Shown here: piece by piece, positions 152 through 6,385 of the stretch | How the letters are laid out: every line of letters begins with the position of its first letter | How positions within the stretch are numbered: the first letter of the stretch is position 1 | From: Nitrospirae bacterium RIFCSPLOWO2_02_FULL_62_14 | GTDB taxonomy: Bacteria; Nitrospirota; Nitrospiria; Nitrospirales; Nitrospiraceae | DNA length: 32,848 nucleotides | Direction of reading: 5' to 3' | Assembly: GCA_001805245.1 (NCBI GenBank) | Contig: MHEU01000007.1 | Location: 31,662 to 64,509 of the forward strand | Made by a program: the position numbers and the translations under genes | Notes under the pieces: generated by a model | Database searches by the model: none | The model's input: only the letters and a program-made list of their open reading frames with translations | What the model was told of the DNA's origin: nothing

Positions 152-784
152 TTGAGAAAGCGCATAGGATTTGCCGCAATCCATCATTTACGGAAAGGAT
201 ATGCTGATCAGCATATTCAATGGTTAGATTGCGTGTACCCGGTCAAGCTCGGATACGACGAAGCTGTACGGCGCATACGTGCGCTTATTCACAACGGGCA
301 TCACGCCGAGGCGCTCGTGACTTCAGTTTTTACTATCGAGAAGACTCTGCGCCGCGTCCTTCGAGCACTGGTAATCTTAGCAGGTTTCCCGTCAACGCAG
401 GCGACTGTCCTCATGGGAAAGTTTGATGGGATGGACAAGGTGAAGCAGATTTGGGAGTGTTTTGATCCACAACTTGAGAAACTTTCCAACTTTGTAGCCC
501 CTGCAACATTGCAGGCGATCGCCGAGACGCAAACGATGCGCAATAAGCTTGTCCATGGCAGTCAGGTCTTCGCCCTCGGTAAGTGTAAAGACGAGGCCGA
601 ACGTGCACTTCGCGCGCTGGATGATCTACGACAAACGATGGAAGATCGGTATGGCTACGATGGGTGGACCAAGATCAAAGCGCGAAAAACCAGCGCATTG
701 CACTTGGACCCACGCGTAAAGGTTGCACGGAATCTAACCCCGGCTTCAACTCGGGCACGCGCAAGAGCGGCGCGCGCCCGTTAA
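152..784 (+). CDS. HEPN-like domain protein (putative RNase/defence related)
   Basis: A 210-residue, mostly helical protein of unknown substrate. Residues 130-135 read RNKLVH, which fits the R-x4-6-H signature of HEPN-fold RNases and toxins. The family link is inferred from that motif, its helical context and the defence-type neighbourhood. The tail (about 190-210) is Arg/Ala-rich and low complexity. The start is uncertain: 152 is TTG with no clear ribosome site, an in-frame stop lies at 134, the next option is GTG at 233, and there is no Met before residue 88. The gene could be truncated at its 5' end. Codon use and G+C match the island genes downstream rather than the backbone. It is followed after 39 bp by another small unknown gene on the same strand. 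Confidence 0.6.
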   Translation: MRKRIGFAAIHHLRKGYADQHIQWLDCVYPVKLGYDEAVRRIRALIHNGHHAEALVTSVFTIEKTLRRVLRALVILAGFPSTQATVLMGKFDGMDKVKQIWECFDPQLEKLSNFVAPATLQAIAETQTMRNKLVHGSQVFALGKCKDEAERALRALDDLRQTMEDRYGYDGWTKIKARKTSALHLDPRVKVARNLTPASTRARARAARAR

Positions 785-823
785 GTGGAGCAATGCTTTG
801 TTGTCAGTTGATCAAATAAGAAG

Positions 824-1210
824 ATGATCGATACCGTTCTTGGTTGGTTATTCAAGATTGCAAGTCTCATGCGACACGTTCGTGTTCGCACGCATCGTGC
901 GTACCTGCCAACTAATACAGACTGCTATTTCATCAATGTCACAAATTTATCCCCGCAGAGGGATGCTGAAATAACTCACGTGTGGATGGCTTCTGACCCT
1001 GAAGTACATGTCTTAAATTCGCAGAGGCCGTTACCGCGCCGTCTTCGCCCCGAAGAGTCCTGGGAAACATGGATTCAGGTGGATAGATTACCCGAAAATG
1101 TTCGTGAGACCGCCCATGCGCTTGCACGTGTTCGACTTTCTACCGGCAGCGTCATTAAGTCTAAACGTAACGAGAATGTTCCACCAATCGGTTCCATCCC
1201 TGGCAGCTAA
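824..1210 (+). CDS. Hypothetical protein, beta-rich
   Basis: A 128-residue protein that I cannot assign to a named family. A short amphipathic N-terminus (WLFKIASLM, residues 8-16) precedes a stretch with alternating hydrophobics (about 33-100) that looks like a small beta-sandwich, including NVTNLSP, THVWM and a Trp-rich EESWETW segment. No catalytic signature and no convincing transmembrane helix is visible. It lies between a HEPN-like gene and a DUF4145 gene in the low-G+C island, so an accessory or defence role is possible only by association. The ATG at 824 has a weak AAGAAG just upstream. Confidence 0.5.
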   Translation: MIDTVLGWLFKIASLMRHVRVRTHRAYLPTNTDCYFINVTNLSPQRDAEITHVWMASDPEVHVLNSQRPLPRRLRPEESWETWIQVDRLPENVRETAHALARVRLSTGSVIKSKRNENVPPIGSIPGS

Positions 1211-1227
1211 CTAGATGTTCAAACGAA

Positions 1228-1256
1228 GAAAAATAATGGGGTCTGCCCCCTTAAGT
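1228..1256. repeat. Degenerate repeat, copy A (GAAAAATAATGG core)
   Basis: GAAAAATAATGG (1228-1239) followed by a small hairpin, GGGG-tctg-CCCC, and then TTAAGT. The 12-mer recurs exactly at 2821-2832, followed by a related TTGAGT-ending stretch. The two copies bracket the DUF4145 and PIN-like genes. Confidence 0.45.
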
Positions 1257-1322
1257 CCATCTCCGCGCGGTTCGTGGCTGACCGCCAAATCGTTAGGCTG
1301 AGTAAAGAGAGGAACGAATCAC

Positions 1323-1976
1323 ATGTCGCAAGCCGAGTTTGATGTCTTCTGCCCAAGTTGCAACATGCTCGTTGCTGCAAAAGTTGTGGCGGAAGGAAAT
1401 GGTGGATTCCGAAGAGATGCGGTTAGCCCGCTTGATGCAGTTGACGCTGAGTATCACGGAGAGCACTACTACGTCTGTCTGTGCGGTCGGTGCAGTCAGC
1501 CATTCCTAATTCGTCAATCGCTTTTCGGGGTTCCCGCAGAATTCGAGACCATAACCGACGAGAAGATTCTGTACCCCAGCGAGAAGAAGCTTCCGCTTGA
1601 TGGTGTGCCCAATACAATAAAATCAGCTTACGATCAGGCCGCACGTTCCTTTTCCGCTTCACTATTCGAGCCGTGCGTACTAATGTGCCGAAAGTGTCTT
1701 GAGGCAACTTGCAGGAACCTCGGTGCCAAGGGGCGTGACCTCAACTTCAAGTTGCAGAGCCTATTTGACGGGGGACACATTGATTCTCGGCTTCTGAACT
1801 GGGCGCACGAAATTCGGTTAATTGGAAACGAAGCCGCACACGATCCTGACACCAAAGTAACGAAGCACGATGCACGAGATGTCCTTGACTTCACTGAGGC
1901 TATCCTGATCTATGTCTTCTCTCTCACATCCCGCTTCGAGGCATTCCGTGCCAGGCGCGCCTCAGACAAGCTATGA
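1323..1976 (+). CDS. Zn-ribbon + DUF4145 (HEPN superfamily) protein
   Basis: A 217-residue protein. The N-terminal part carries two CxxC knuckles (C10/C13 and C54/C57) that can form a zinc ribbon. The C-terminal half (about 98-200) is a helical DUF4145-like domain containing the family block IRLIGNEAAHD at 164-174, with Arg165 and His173. DUF4145 is placed in the HEPN superfamily and is frequent in restriction and anti-phage loci; nuclease activity here is inference. A good ribosome site (AGAGAGGA, spacing about 9) supports ATG 1323. A GTTAGGC motif lies about 25 bp upstream of the start. The PIN-like gene follows 85 bp downstream, and together they could form an RNA-targeting pair. Confidence 0.75.
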   Translation: MSQAEFDVFCPSCNMLVAAKVVAEGNGGFRRDAVSPLDAVDAEYHGEHYYVCLCGRCSQPFLIRQSLFGVPAEFETITDEKILYPSEKKLPLDGVPNTIKSAYDQAARSFSASLFEPCVLMCRKCLEATCRNLGAKGRDLNFKLQSLFDGGHIDSRLLNWAHEIRLIGNEAAHDPDTKVTKHDARDVLDFTEAILIYVFSLTSRFEAFRARRASDKL

Positions 1977-2061
1977 AGATAGATAAAGGGTGGTGGGGAG
2001 TCTCTTTTTAAACCTGCGGTAACCTTTAAGGCTTGTTCAAGAGGAAATTAGGCCCCAGAAA

Positions 2062-2775
2062 ATGTACTCTGACCCTGATACTCCTGATACTCCAAAAATG
2101 TCCCAGGCAAAAGTATTTCTCGATACGGCCGCAGTGAAACATTCGATCCGTTCGCGGACAGTTCTTCGTCCCAAGCGGCAGACTATGACTTGGGGCAACC
2201 AGGTGCACGAAGTCGTTGTTCATGACATCGTAGAGATAGACCCCACGGCAGATGTTACCGTTGAACCGCTGAGGACGGAGATTGATCTTCTCTCAGAGAT
2301 CGCAAAGCGCGCGACGGCCGATGATATTGAACTGTTATGGAACATAGAATCCGAGATCGAATTCTTCGGGATTTATCCGTTAGGAGGCGGGGCTTCCGAA
2401 CTTATAGATGCAGGGGTCACAATGGTGGAAGGTCCCGTGAAGTACGACCGACTTCTTACTCCCATGTCTCCGTTCTTAGGCGAAACGTGGCGGAGCATTC
2501 GGACGGACTTTCTGAGAGGACTCGATCATCCGCGTTACCATCAGTTGCAACGGGCTTGCGGTGCGCACCAAGGGGATCGGATTAACGAGAATCAGTTGGT
2601 TGATGCGTTTCATGTTTGGTGCGCCGAAGTCGCTGGCGCGTCACACTTTTTAACCACCGACCTGAAGCTAGTTCGGCTCGTCCGTGACCATAAGTCGGCC
2701 CCACCAAAGGTACGAGTTGTCACACCGTCCCAATTGCTTAGCGAGCTTGCCGCGAATGCTCAGAACAGCGCCTAA
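2062..2775 (+). CDS. PIN-like nuclease domain protein
   Basis: A 237-residue protein with a PIN-type layout: an N-terminal strand with Asp (VFLDTA, D21), a long helical middle, then the C-terminal signature QLVDAFHVWCAE followed by HFLTTDLKL, matching the conserved Asp and T-x-D of PIN RNases. It is longer than the ~130 residues of VapC toxins and has no obvious small antitoxin gene beside it, so a classical VapBC module is unlikely. ATG 2098 (MSQAKVF) is an alternative start that would begin directly at the first PIN strand. Neither start has a strong ribosome site. The stop is followed at once by GCCTAAC. Assignment is by motif; the substrate is unknown. Confidence 0.65.
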   Translation: MYSDPDTPDTPKMSQAKVFLDTAAVKHSIRSRTVLRPKRQTMTWGNQVHEVVVHDIVEIDPTADVTVEPLRTEIDLLSEIAKRATADDIELLWNIESEIEFFGIYPLGGGASELIDAGVTMVEGPVKYDRLLTPMSPFLGETWRSIRTDFLRGLDHPRYHQLQRACGAHQGDRINENQLVDAFHVWCAEVAGASHFLTTDLKLVRLVRDHKSAPPKVRVVTPSQLLSELAANAQNSA

Positions 2776-2820
2776 CCTACACACGATGGCCGGCTAGCTT
2801 TGCACAATAAAATTGCTGGG

Positions 2821-2850
2821 GAAAAATAATGGATCAGACTGCTTGAGTGG
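2821..2850. repeat. Degenerate repeat, copy B (GAAAAATAATGG core)
   Basis: An exact copy of the 12-mer found at 1228-1239, followed by a diverged tail ending TTGAGT. It lies between the PIN-like gene and the convergent methylase gene. With copy A it flanks a two-gene segment. Confidence 0.45.
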
Positions 2851-2852
2851 GT

Positions 2853-3740
2853 TTACAATGTATATGTCAGCAACAGCCTGTCAGACACGACTTCCGATTC
2901 GAGAGTTTGACCTTCCATTTGAAACCGACGCAGCATTGAGCGACCAACGTTGACGAAAATTTCTTCCTCAAAGAGATCATCTGGAGTAGGAAGATCGCAA
3001 AGCATCTCGCCCGATTTCTTTGTGCCGTCGATACTCAAAGCCACATACACGCCCCTAGACTTACACTGAAGTATCTCCTCAAACAATTCCTCTAGCCGGA
3101 ACTGCTGCCCACCGTAAAGAATCGACTGGCTATGCCTATATGGTGGGTCGCAATAGATAAGATCGCCCTTCCGAGCTTTTTTCATCGCATCACGGAAATC
3201 CATCACAACAAAGTCTGTGGAGTGAATTCTCTCGTGCCACAAGTCTACTCGTCTGTTGAAGCTATCCGGTGTTATAGGCTCATGAACACCGCATGGTGTT
3301 GACATATATCCATCGGCTTGACGGAAGCGCACAACTCCGCCATAGCAGGAACGACATAGAAACAGAAGGTCGGCACCATTTGGGGCGCGATTGTACGATG
3401 CTTTGATTTTCTCGTAACCCTCATGCTTTCTCTCACCGTGTGCATTTTGCCAGCGTTCCCGATACCATTCCTTCAATTGTTTGGGGTTGGCTTTTAGCGT
3501 GAGCCATATCTCCATGAGTGGCGCGAAGGTGTCTGAAACAAGGGCATTGACTGGCGCGAGAGTAGCCAATACTCCCCCACTTCCTAGAAACGGCTCATAG
3601 TAGCGGTCAAACTTTTCTGGGAACGACCCAACTATTTCATAAGCGAATCTCTGCTTATTACCTACCCATTTCAATAGCTGGGTAGTGAATGGCCGGATGT
3701 ACTTATGAGGGGCATCCTTAAAGAGTATGTGCTGCATCAT
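2853..3740 (-). CDS. D12-class DNA adenine-N6 methyltransferase (type II R-M)
   Basis: Modifies adenine in the recognition site of the adjacent restriction enzyme. With the start at 3740 the protein is 295 residues. It shows the D12/Dam-family order: KWVGNKQ (24-30), motif I EPFLGSGG (49-56) for AdoMet binding, and motif IV DPPY (198-201) for catalysis. This alpha-type order is shared by Dam, M.DpnII and M.EcoRV; sequence specificity cannot be read by eye. An upstream in-frame ATG at 3779 is rejected: it lies ahead of the predicted transcription start (promoter TTGACG-N17-TATTGT, 3804 to 3776) and has no ribosome site, whereas 3740 has GGGGGA about 11 bp upstream. The gene diverges from the XRE controller, so one operator can govern both transcripts. 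Confidence 0.88.
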   Translation of the reverse strand: MMQHILFKDAPHKYIRPFTTQLLKWVGNKQRFAYEIVGSFPEKFDRYYEPFLGSGGVLATLAPVNALVSDTFAPLMEIWLTLKANPKQLKEWYRERWQNAHGERKHEGYEKIKASYNRAPNGADLLFLCRSCYGGVVRFRQADGYMSTPCGVHEPITPDSFNRRVDLWHERIHSTDFVVMDFRDAMKKARKGDLIYCDPPYRHSQSILYGGQQFRLEELFEEILQCKSRGVYVALSIDGTKKSGEMLCDLPTPDDLFEEEIFVNVGRSMLRRFQMEGQTLESEVVSDRLLLTYTL

Positions 3741-3775
3741 TGAAGTCGCGTCCCCCAAGAACTTTTGCCTGCATA

Positions 3776-3804
3776 ACAATATCCGAATTTGGGATATTCG
3801 TCAA
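3776..3804 (-). promoter_or_regulatory. Promoter of the methylase gene
   Basis: On the minus strand, TTGACG (3804-3799), a 17 bp spacer, then TATTGT (3781-3776). It interpenetrates the oppositely oriented controller promoter. Confidence 0.55.
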
Positions 3805-3810
3805 TAGAAT
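3784..3810. promoter_or_regulatory. Candidate C-box/operator between divergent R-M promoters
   Basis: Two linked inverted repeats: CGAAT (3784-3788)/ATTCG (3796-3800) and ATTC (3796-3799)/GAAT (3807-3810). They overlap both -35 boxes, the position expected for a controller-protein operator in a type II R-M system. Binding by the neighbouring XRE protein is inference. Confidence 0.45.
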
Positions 3811-3817
3811 CTATAGT
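3789..3817 (+). promoter_or_regulatory. Promoter of XRE controller, probably leaderless
   Basis: TTGGGA (3789-3794), 17 bp spacer, TATAGT (3812-3817). The ATG of the controller begins only 7 bp beyond the -10 box, so the transcript should start at or next to the start codon. Leaderless controller mRNAs are documented in some R-M systems. Confidence 0.5.
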
Positions 3818-3823
3818 GCTGCA

Positions 3824-4069
3824 ATGCGCAGGAGTAGGGAAACACAGAAACGCAAAGTACGGGAGCTTCTTCGCGACCTTCGTGAAGCGGCGGGGCTCCG
3901 ACAGGTCGATTTGGCCGCACGTCTGAAGAGGCCCCAATCCTTTGTTAGCAAGTACGAGTCCGGGGAGAAGACCTTGGATTTTCTTGAGGTCAGGGAAGTA
4001 TGCCGCGCCTTGGGTGTGCCTCTGGCCGACTTCGTGCGTCGTTACGAGGAAGCGCCGGATGAAGGCTGA
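3824..4069 (+). CDS. XRE-family controller (C) protein of the R-M system
   Basis: An 81-residue single-domain helix-turn-helix protein. Residues 11-73 form the XRE fold: LRDLREAAGLRQVDLAARL, then SFVSKYESGEKTL (recognition helix and tight turn), then LEVREVCRALG. Size and position match C proteins, which bind operators near their own promoter and delay nuclease expression until methylation is established. The reading frame is open upstream to 3740, but ATG 3824 is preferred because it begins just before the conserved fold and just after a strong -10 box. The last 11 bp overlap the start of the nuclease gene, implying translational coupling. Confidence 0.85.
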   Translation: MRRSRETQKRKVRELLRDLREAAGLRQVDLAARLKRPQSFVSKYESGEKTLDFLEVREVCRALGVPLADFVRRYEEAPDEG

Positions 4070-4916
4070 TCCTAAATTCGCAACACTTCCGAAATCCTTT
4101 TGGGCGGCTGTGCGGAGCGTTAGCCAAGAAGTCGGATACACGATACGAGGCAAAAGCCAGGTCAAGATTCCTACTGTTGGCGAGATCCGCCGATCATTTG
4201 AAAGCCTATGCTTGAATCCTGATCGCATTGGTGATGCAGAAACTCCAACTGATCTTGCAGCCATGCTGCTCGCATATTACGAACACCGGGCCAACGTTCT
4301 CAACAACTTTGTTGAGCCGCGTCTCATGGATGTTAAGCGTGCAAAATCAGAGTTCGGCGCATTAAAGAAAAAACTCAAGCCAACCTGCGCTATACCTTTG
4401 AACAAGCAAAAAGGGAAAAAGAAAGCGCCTGCATATTTCACTGGCATTATTAACATGCTGATAGAAGCTCACTCGAAAGGTCTTCCTTGTGACTTCGATC
4501 CTCGTGAACTCACGACAGTTACAAGGGACGGAATTCCGCTCCGGACGCTGGCGCGGCGCGTAGATGGCGCTTTCCCGAGCACGGTTAACCCTGTTGCAAT
4601 ATGGGAGGTCAAAGAATACTACTACACGACGACATTCGGTAGCCGTGTTGCCGATGGTGTCTACGAAACGCTGCTGGATGGTATGGAACTAGAAGAGCTT
4701 CGCGAACATGAAAGAATAAAGGTCCTGCATTACCTGATGCTCGATGCTCATTATACGTGGTGGGACTGTGGGAAGTCATACCTATGCAGGATTGTCGACA
4801 TGCTGCATATGGGCTACACAGATGAAGTACTCTTTGGTTACGAAGTAGTTGAACGCTTGCCAGAGCTTGTTAAGAGCTGGGCAAGACTTGCTTCGAAGAC
4901 GAAAGATCGGGCTTAG
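4059..4916 (+). CDS. Probable type II restriction endonuclease (PD-(D/E)XK type)
   Basis: A 285-residue protein. The supportable catalytic core is Asp169 followed 14 residues later by E183-V-K185 (IWEVKEYYYTTTFGS), the spacing of a PD-(D/E)XK site. Hydrophobic strands surround EVK, as in restriction nucleases. No other family is apparent, and the specificity is unknown. The role is supported mainly by context: it overlaps the XRE controller by 11 bp and is divergent from a D12 adenine methylase, the classical C-R versus M arrangement. ATG 4059 is chosen because GAGGA lies about 10 bp upstream inside the controller gene; an upstream in-frame start at 3942 would lie wholly inside the controller. 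Base composition matches the island. Confidence 0.72.
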   Translation: MKADPKFATLPKSFWAAVRSVSQEVGYTIRGKSQVKIPTVGEIRRSFESLCLNPDRIGDAETPTDLAAMLLAYYEHRANVLNNFVEPRLMDVKRAKSEFGALKKKLKPTCAIPLNKQKGKKKAPAYFTGIINMLIEAHSKGLPCDFDPRELTTVTRDGIPLRTLARRVDGAFPSTVNPVAIWEVKEYYYTTTFGSRVADGVYETLLDGMELEELREHERIKVLHYLMLDAHYTWWDCGKSYLCRIVDMLHMGYTDEVLFGYEVVERLPELVKSWARLASKTKDRA

Positions 4917-4994
4917 CAACGTATTGAGGATCGAGAAAAGAGGCGAGATTTTTTCCTAAATTTCTCCCCGATGATATTTGGCTATCTCCGAGCT

Positions 4995-5106
4995 GTTCAA
5001 AAAGACATTCCAGCGAGGCCACAGCGAGCGAGGGACCGAGGCATACTTTTTTCGGTATGTTGAGGTTCCGAGTGATGCGAGAACGAAGCTGGAGGTCTTT
5101 TTCAAC
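4995..5106. repeat. MITE-like imperfect palindrome at island boundary
   Basis: Left arm GTTCAAAAAGACATTCCAGC (4995-5014) pairs with right arm GCTGGAGGTCTTTTTCAAC (5088-5106), about 17 of 20 positions with one indel. Inner stretches (GGACCGAGGCATAC and GTATGTTGAGGTTCC) also pair, so the whole ~110 bp could fold as one long hairpin. It sits exactly where the A+T-richer accessory region gives way to the G+C-rich backbone. The rest of 4917-5111 shows no gene. Confidence 0.6.
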
Positions 5107-5111
5107 TGCCG

Positions 5112-5303
5112 CTAATCTGCTTCCGGTTCGGACCCGCCATGCTTGTGAGTAACCTTATCCTCGTTGAACAGCTCGGCCATTTCTTCGGCGATCATGTCGC
5201 GGTCGTTGGGGACGGAAACGAGGGGAATCTCCTTGCGGCCCTTGGGCGGACACGCAGGGGCGTCGGGTTCGGGAGGGTGCTTGGGTTTCTTCGAATCGCT
5301 CAT
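5112..5303 (-). CDS. Small acidic/proline-rich hypothetical protein
   Basis: A 63-residue protein starting MSDSKKPKHPPEPD. The N-terminal half is rich in Pro, Lys and Cys (PDAPACPPKGRK). The C-terminal half has a short amphipathic helix (MIAEEMAELFNED) and a His/Glu-rich tail. No family or membrane segment is recognised. An upstream in-frame ATG at 5321 would add six residues; neither start has a clear ribosome site. It is read in the same direction as the Zn-ribbon gene upstream and may be cotranscribed with it (34 bp gap). Confidence 0.45.
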   Translation of the reverse strand: MSDSKKPKHPPEPDAPACPPKGRKEIPLVSVPNDRDMIAEEMAELFNEDKVTHKHGGSEPEAD

Positions 5304-6282: not shown

Positions 6283-6379
6283 GTCTGTTCGGTCGTCAGG
6301 TCTATCTTGTCTGTTCAGTCTGCCCGGAAACCAGATAAACCAGATAAACCAGACAAACCAAATAAACCAGATAGACCAG
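6283..6379. repeat. Inverted array of 9-bp words upstream of fpg
   Basis: Right arm: five 9-bp units of the type CCAGATAAA at 6331, 6340, 6349, 6358 and 6367. Left arm: GTC-headed words (GTCTGTTCG-like) at 6283, 6292, 6300, 6309 and 6318, roughly the reverse complement of the right-arm words. It fills the space just before the Fpg start codon. Related architectures occur at four other junctions in this window. Confidence 0.6.
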
Positions 6380-6385
6380 GGTCAG

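Follow-up and report, generated by a model that had tools for sequence, protein, structure and literature searches.

A predicted BclI-type restriction-modification locus whose XRE controller and operator appear to differ from those of BclI

Introduction

Where a methylase gene diverges from a small XRE-family gene that runs into a nuclease gene, two questions arise: to which type of restriction-modification (R-M) system the enzymes belong, and how a single controller protein could act from one short intergenic region on transcription in both directions. Such a locus is present in the window, the 32,848-nucleotide stretch of contig MHEU01000007.1 of Nitrospirae bacterium RIFCSPLOWO2_02_FULL_62_14 analysed here, to which all positions refer unless another locus is named. 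An initial annotation, made from these letters, had proposed a compact type II R-M system with interlocked divergent promoters and a leaderless controller.

Results

The divergent order of methylase versus controller plus nuclease is present in the window (Table 1), and gene calls and family profiles agree with the coordinates and the 11-bp overlap given initially for what is a predicted compact type II R-M system. The controller frame runs from ATG 3824 to TGA 4069 and the nuclease frame from ATG 4059 to TAG 4916, with positions 4059-4069 common to both. The most probable methylase start is ATG 3740 or 3737, with GGGGGA ten bases 5′, since a longer frame that opens with TTG at 3779 begins within the promoter and is disfavoured.

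Table 1. Features of the R-M locus and of the segment that holds it
Feature	Position	Strand	Details
M, D12-class N6-adenine DNA methylase	2853..3740	minus	295 aa; Pfam PF02086 E 1.6e-25; PADLOC MTase_II E 4.5e-68
C, XRE controller, predicted leaderless	3824..4069	plus	81 aa; HTH_31 E 1e-12
R, BclI-type PD-(D/E)XK restriction endonuclease (predicted)	4059..4916	plus	285 aa; PADLOC REase_II PDLC03423 E 7e-63
Predicted catalytic core D169-x13-E183-V-K185	4563..4613	plus	D169, E183 and K185 invariant in 44 sequences
Controller residues 37-43 (PQSFVSK), predicted recognition segment	3932..3952	plus	37 and 43 covary with operator position 5
O1, conserved operator ATATCC-N7-GGATAT	3779..3797		19-bp palindrome; all 12 arm letters match in window
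O2, weaker second copy ATATTCGTCAATAGAATCT	3794..3812		9/12 letters; 15 bp from O1
Predicted methylase promoter	3776..3804	minus	-35 TTGACG 3804-3799, spacer 17, -10 TATTGT 3781-3776
Predicted controller promoter	3789..3817	plus	-35 TTGGGA 3789-3794, spacer 17, -10 TATAGT 3812-3817
Segment absent from same-genus genome	~185..5112		755 bp between kept flanks in G199

Pfam matches of the nuclease are to DUF7690 and DUF7687, and searches of NCBIfam and of PDB sequences returned nothing useful on this protein. The D-x13-EVK core that had been proposed is present, its three catalytic residues unchanged throughout the alignment. An AlphaFold2 model (44 sequences, pLDDT 95.7) has its best fold matches among PD-(D/E)XK restriction enzymes, with BstEII at Z 11.9 (156 aligned, 3.2 A), SgrAI at 9.0 and PspGI and BsoBI each at 8.8; Foldseek alone gave no match below E 0.001, the best being BstEII at 0.011. 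BamHI and BglII are not among the fold matches listed, and no inference is placed on their absence.

The initial annotation recognised this core and left the nuclease subtype unnamed; it can be identified as the BclI type. A tblastn search of plasmids with the nuclease returned four records, the best of which is pBcl1 from [Bacillus] caldolyticus NEB414, the BclI source strain. On pBcl1, a DNA adenine methylase gene diverges from an HTH gene that is followed by a nuclease gene annotated as hypothetical. Both window enzymes are colinear with their pBcl1 counterparts, R with 41.9% identity over 289 columns and the catalytic core aligned, M with 49.6% identity over 284 columns; the blocks held in common include PSTVNP..IWE.KEYYYTTTFGSR.ADGVYET and TWW..GKSYLCRI.DMLHMG in R and GYMSTP, CDPPY and HSQSILYG in M. 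The pBcl1 HTH protein matches C.BclI (PDB 2b5a) letter for letter across the 68 residues compared, and of the four m6A motifs documented for the NEB414 genome the II alpha one, TGATCA, is assigned to M.Bcl (PMC5805893). For these two reasons, pBcl1 very probably carries BclI itself. Given the colinearity with the pBcl1 pair, we infer that R and M are a BclI-type pair for which T^GATCA is the expected site of cutting and methylation. TGATCA is not depleted in the host genome, with 1081 copies in 2.66 Mb (~0.41 per kb), a density within the range of 59 other genomes of the family (~0.30 to 0.50 per kb, from rounded genome sizes); the reversed control ACTAGT was dropped from the site counts, being rare itself. 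The DUF7687/DUF7690 pair, of which no mention was found in the literature searched, is now tied to the BclI type of enzyme.

Scanning genome contigs once identified 62 related loci, distributed over Planctomycetota, Verrucomicrobiota, Pseudomonadota, Chloroflexota, Nitrospirota, Acidobacteriota and other phyla. The order methylase, controller, nuclease, with a window-type controller, is found in 46 of these 62 relatives; five have a divergent methylase and nuclease with no controller detected, four have another arrangement and seven have no methylase match in the available piece. The methylase tree places the window together with L002 and L033 (support 100/99), from records labelled Deltaproteobacteria and Nitrospinota. 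PF24736 has matches in three phylum genomes out of 198, one of them the window's own. Nuclease relatives are present on four plasmids and on three viral contigs in which no controller was detected, and had no match in 50,697 phage records. One locus from the window's own family (L134, genome G278) has the same DNA as L031, a Nitrospira record, over 3210 bases, so the genome of the window probably belongs to Nitrospiraceae; L134 was set aside as adding no new evidence. L138 and L129 are one locus, as are L145 and L128. In one decaying relative (L035:3290-3529) the nuclease frame is broken and the operator degraded, with the controller and methylase frames persisting.

The flanks of the segment that holds the R-M genes are ~4.9 kb apart in the window versus 755 bp in G199, a genome of the same genus, and the GC content is ~50% inside the segment versus 55-65% to its right. 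A recent local gain is favoured over loss in the relative, and horizontal acquisition is the best explanation for the presence of the R-M system. The same inserted segment encodes a DUF4145 protein (1323-1976) that matches PADLOC PD-T7-4 (E 4.8e-12), an anti-phage defence family, and three frames (152-784, 824-1210 and 2062-2775, the last directly adjoining the methylase gene) with no Pfam match at E up to 1. At the right edge of the segment lies a dispersed repeat of ~113 bp (4994-5106), which has inverted ends and many copies across the genome and the genus, and a second dispersed repeat of ~40-50 bp, also with many copies in the genus, lies downstream of a phosphatase-like frame (6329-6380).

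The divergent promoter boxes are located where the initial annotation had placed them, and the shared operator region that it proposed between them is conserved across relatives. The repeats then noted, CGAAT/ATTCG and ATTC/GAAT, exist; the conserved element is, however, the overlapping palindrome O1, which fills the spacer of the methylase promoter, touches the methylase -10 and contains the controller -35. CGAAT/ATTCG was rejected as the operator, as it is not the element kept among relatives, and the ATTC/GAAT pair belongs to O2. With the operator scored as matches over its 12 arm letters, a score of at least 9 is reached in 43 of 49 loci with a BLAST-detected controller, and all 12 letters match in 16; the six below 9 are L018, L019, L031 and L034 (8 each) and L035 and L068 (7 each). 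Among 10 loci with no BLAST match to the window controller only pGA2 reaches 9; both pGA2 and pBcl1 carry HTH genes of their own. None of the eight loci without a known controller, some of which are nearly identical, reaches 9 (L004, L006, L012, L038, L047 and L074-L076), and four further loci with another arrangement score 7, 7, 7 and 10 (L052).

The exact operator occurs once in the 2.66-Mb genome, at this locus. Across the phylum, exact ATATCCNNNTTTGGGATAT is found in 6 of 395 genomes versus 1 match for the reversed pattern. A controller-like gene lies close downstream in 6 of the 44 stretches examined with the exact operator (39 from viral contigs and 5 from other phylum genomes), and many of the remaining stretches look like chance or coding sequence. 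A second site is positioned 15 bp downstream in the window and several relatives and ~28 bp downstream, at the controller start, in others, with any second site present in 18 of 40 loci; the second copy in L002 is perfectly palindromic, in the ATATTC form.

In many relatives the -35 boxes stand at a fixed offset from the operator. TCAA, the reverse of the TTGA in the methylase -35, is located 3 bp past the site in 17 of 40 loci when sites are picked on arm letters alone. TCAA or GCAA is found at that offset in 35 of 47 when the site choice favoured a nearby TCAA/GCAA, a count biased by that choice, in which the L031 site differs from that of the covariation table and, for L023, L036, L045 and L057, the other of two adjacent sites is used. 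The methylase -10 shares part of its TAT with the operator. Site choice made no use of the controller -10, which matches at least 5 of 6 letters in 17 of 47 loci versus 2% of flank draws. In the window six bases separate this box from the controller ATG, and a TAnnnT box 3-12 nt before an in-frame start, mostly 6-7 bases away, is present in 28 of 47 loci versus 40 of 980 random ATGs. On the strength of these boxes a leaderless controller is predicted in more than half of the loci, which supports the earlier prediction for the window.

Position 5 of the operator arm is variable and, where it changes symmetrically, the recognition segment of the controller varies too. The covariation table holds 47 of the 49 loci; L035, with its degraded site and interrupted nuclease frame, and L068, with a controller of C.BclI type, are excluded. 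R43 is present in all four loci with G (3) or A (1) at position 5 and in none of the 43 others, and S or T37 in all five loci with ATATTC/GAATAT-type arms and in none of the 42 others; by shuffled mutual information, K43 and P37 are the two top columns for position 5. Outside this set, agreement is seen in pGA2 (T37, ATATTC/GAATAC) and in L148 (S37, ATATTC/GAATAT, with the site 142 bases upstream). Controllers with P37/K43 and a clear site outside the set have the CC/GG form or one altered arm (L100, L107, L126, L130, L138, L140, L143 and L144), and H37 is found in L145. In L158, whose controller match is weak, P37/K43 occurs with a TAC/GTA palindrome, a case that breaks the rule or is chance. 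No clear operator site was found at the L137, L139, L142, L147 and L149 controllers. Mapped onto the methylase tree, each operator change requires three events or more, and the supported independent pairs, two and one, are too few for a sign test. As the operator changes symmetrically with residues 37 and 43, the case for direct binding of the controller to O1 is good, not conclusive. The pGA2 locus, on a C. glutamicum plasmid (L069:4709-4727), combines a BclI-type nuclease with a third XRE class, and its operator form fits the residue-37 rule.

The BclI system of pBcl1 has the same divergent order of methylase, controller and nuclease as the window. The controllers themselves, in contrast, belong to different XRE classes: BLASTP gave no match between the window controller and C.BclI at E up to 1, and phmmer links the two at 1.3e-7, as fellow XRE proteins. 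The closest PDB sequence to the window controller is 3f6w, with C.BclI third. A C-box class of the GACT/AGTC type is familiar from classical C proteins. Boxes of this type lie upstream of C.BclI, whereas the window has ATATCC-N7-GGATAT and no GACT-N3-AGTC in 3741-3823; the class is described in PMC3115060. The controller and nuclease genes overlap by 11 bp in the window and are separated by a 2 bp gap in pBcl1. From these comparisons the window controller is placed outside the C.BclI or classical C-protein class. It has features predicted for a C protein in the broad sense, being a small HTH protein encoded directly upstream of a nuclease, with an operator at its own promoter and a leaderless start.

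Discussion

We give a probability of roughly 0.7 to a reading in which, jointly, the enzymes are of BclI type, the controller binds the operator and the methylase is repressed. By homology with the BclI pair, R would cut and M would protect TGATCA. The XRE controller, presumably as a dimer, would bind O1, with residues 37 and 43 recognising position 5 in each arm. Because O1 occupies the spacer of the methylase promoter and covers the controller -35, the bound controller would be expected to keep RNA polymerase off the methylase promoter. When the system enters a cell, this promoter would fire first, with controller and nuclease building up slowly from the leaderless transcript of a weaker, interlocked promoter; the controller at O1 would then turn the methylase down, and O1 together with the weak O2 beside the controller -10 would cap controller and nuclease. 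Since O1 also covers the controller -35, it is not evident that the methylase would give way cleanly to the nuclease. The net sign at the controller promoter is a guess based on geometry, with relief of competition at low controller level and repression at high level, and the alternatives that concern this sign share ground with the main explanation and do not exclude it.

Under the logic of classical C proteins, a dimer at O1 would help polymerase and so activate controller and nuclease, and occupancy of O2 would repress at high level. This would account for the unequal sites in the window, O1 being the stronger and O2 lying beside the controller -10, and for a controller gene directly before the nuclease, and it is the logic described for EcoRV (PMC6237814). 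The centre of O1 is, however, ~36 bp ahead of the predicted start, and the -35 hexamer falls within O1, a placement that usually blocks polymerase, and the distance from O1 to the second site varies (15 or ~28 bp), with many relatives having no second site; we regard activation from O1 as rather unlikely. Pure autorepression, in which the controller lowers both promoters together to a low steady level with no ordered switch, is possible if doubtful. O1 overlaps core elements of both promoters and HipB, which has the same half-sites, is a repressor (PMC3376134 and PMC3920265), but a delay of the nuclease on entry would then be unexplained unless promoter strength alone suffices, and O1 reaches further into the methylase promoter than into the controller promoter.

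Two further alternatives concern the enzymes and their activity. The pair may be BclI-like in sequence and act at a different site, for example another sequence that contains GATC, and identities to the pBcl1 pair of only 42% (R) and 50% (M), together with the lack of TGATCA depletion in the genome, fit such a divergence; the long conserved blocks in both R and M nevertheless make it improbable. A relic, with the genes present and the system silent or inactive in the host, would have a parallel in the decay of the related L035, with its broken nuclease frame and degraded site, and the host is known only from sequence. With three open frames, intact catalytic residues and an operator that retains 12/12 arm letters, it is nonetheless a very improbable account of the window locus.

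For the preferred reading, repression of the methylase from a shared operator, C.Kpn2I provides the nearest described logic. As reported in PMC6237814, the Kpn2I methylase promoter overlaps divergent controller promoters, and repressing the former is said to raise the latter; C.Kpn2I and the window controller both resemble general XRE proteins more closely than classical C proteins. The two differ in that the Kpn2I operator is inside the controller gene, where it acts as an elongation roadblock, and the nuclease has its own promoter, whereas in the window the operator is intergenic and the nuclease gene overlaps the controller gene. A second likeness is to HipB, which binds TATCC-N8-GGATA at hipBA operators (PMC3376134 and PMC3920265). 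The half-sites in the window, TATCC/GGATA, are those of HipB, with a spacer one bp shorter (N7 versus N8); in contrast to HipB, a nuclease gene follows downstream and no HipA-like gene lies beside. NCBIfam couple_hipB scores 37.3 bits against the controller, below its cut-off of 71.65, and the controller is therefore not called HipB, an identity to which the N7 spacing and the nuclease partner are likewise opposed.

Similar controller-operator pairs are found beyond the BclI family. At L129 and L130 a window-type controller and operator precede a nuclease of the MvaI/BcnI family (PF15515, E 1.1e-20 and 2.7e-43), and at L129, L130 and L144 the controller class and operator are as in the window, whereas the nuclease family is unrelated. 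One of these three loci has a methylase-like frame beside it. Window-type controllers with the operator are also present on viral contigs (L100, L107 and L126), with no nuclease recognised beside them. Since the same controller and operator precede MvaI/BcnI-family nucleases, the pair is a cassette common to unrelated R-M systems. We lean slightly towards the wider proposal that this is a portable XRE cassette, reading ATAT-X-C-N7-G-X′-ATAT via residues 37 and 43, that has been recruited in many phyla by unrelated type II R-M systems (BclI and MvaI/BcnI types) and by mobile elements.

The enzymes are ordinary members of the known BclI type, and what may be mildly new is the controller-operator pair within the BclI family. 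C.BclI was reportedly studied by Sawaya et al. in 2005, and a C-box survey by Sorokin et al. in 2009 is said to have listed 10 motifs; the pair described here may already be among those 2009 classes. No description of this operator or of a HipB link was found in the R-M literature searched, mostly open-access papers. A 2025 paper puts C proteins in a branch named HipB (PMC12376442), so the protein class as such is not new. What the locus offers is a testable two-residue recognition rule for an R-M controller. If the portable cassette is real, the BclI family would have swapped its controller class with enzymes and gene order kept, and its letter code would allow cross-regulation or mutual exclusion between R-M systems to be predicted from their sequences. 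Incompatibility between R-M systems that acts through their C proteins is described in PMC3874152, and being able to read controller specificity from sequence is relevant to the question of which R-M systems a cell can take up together.
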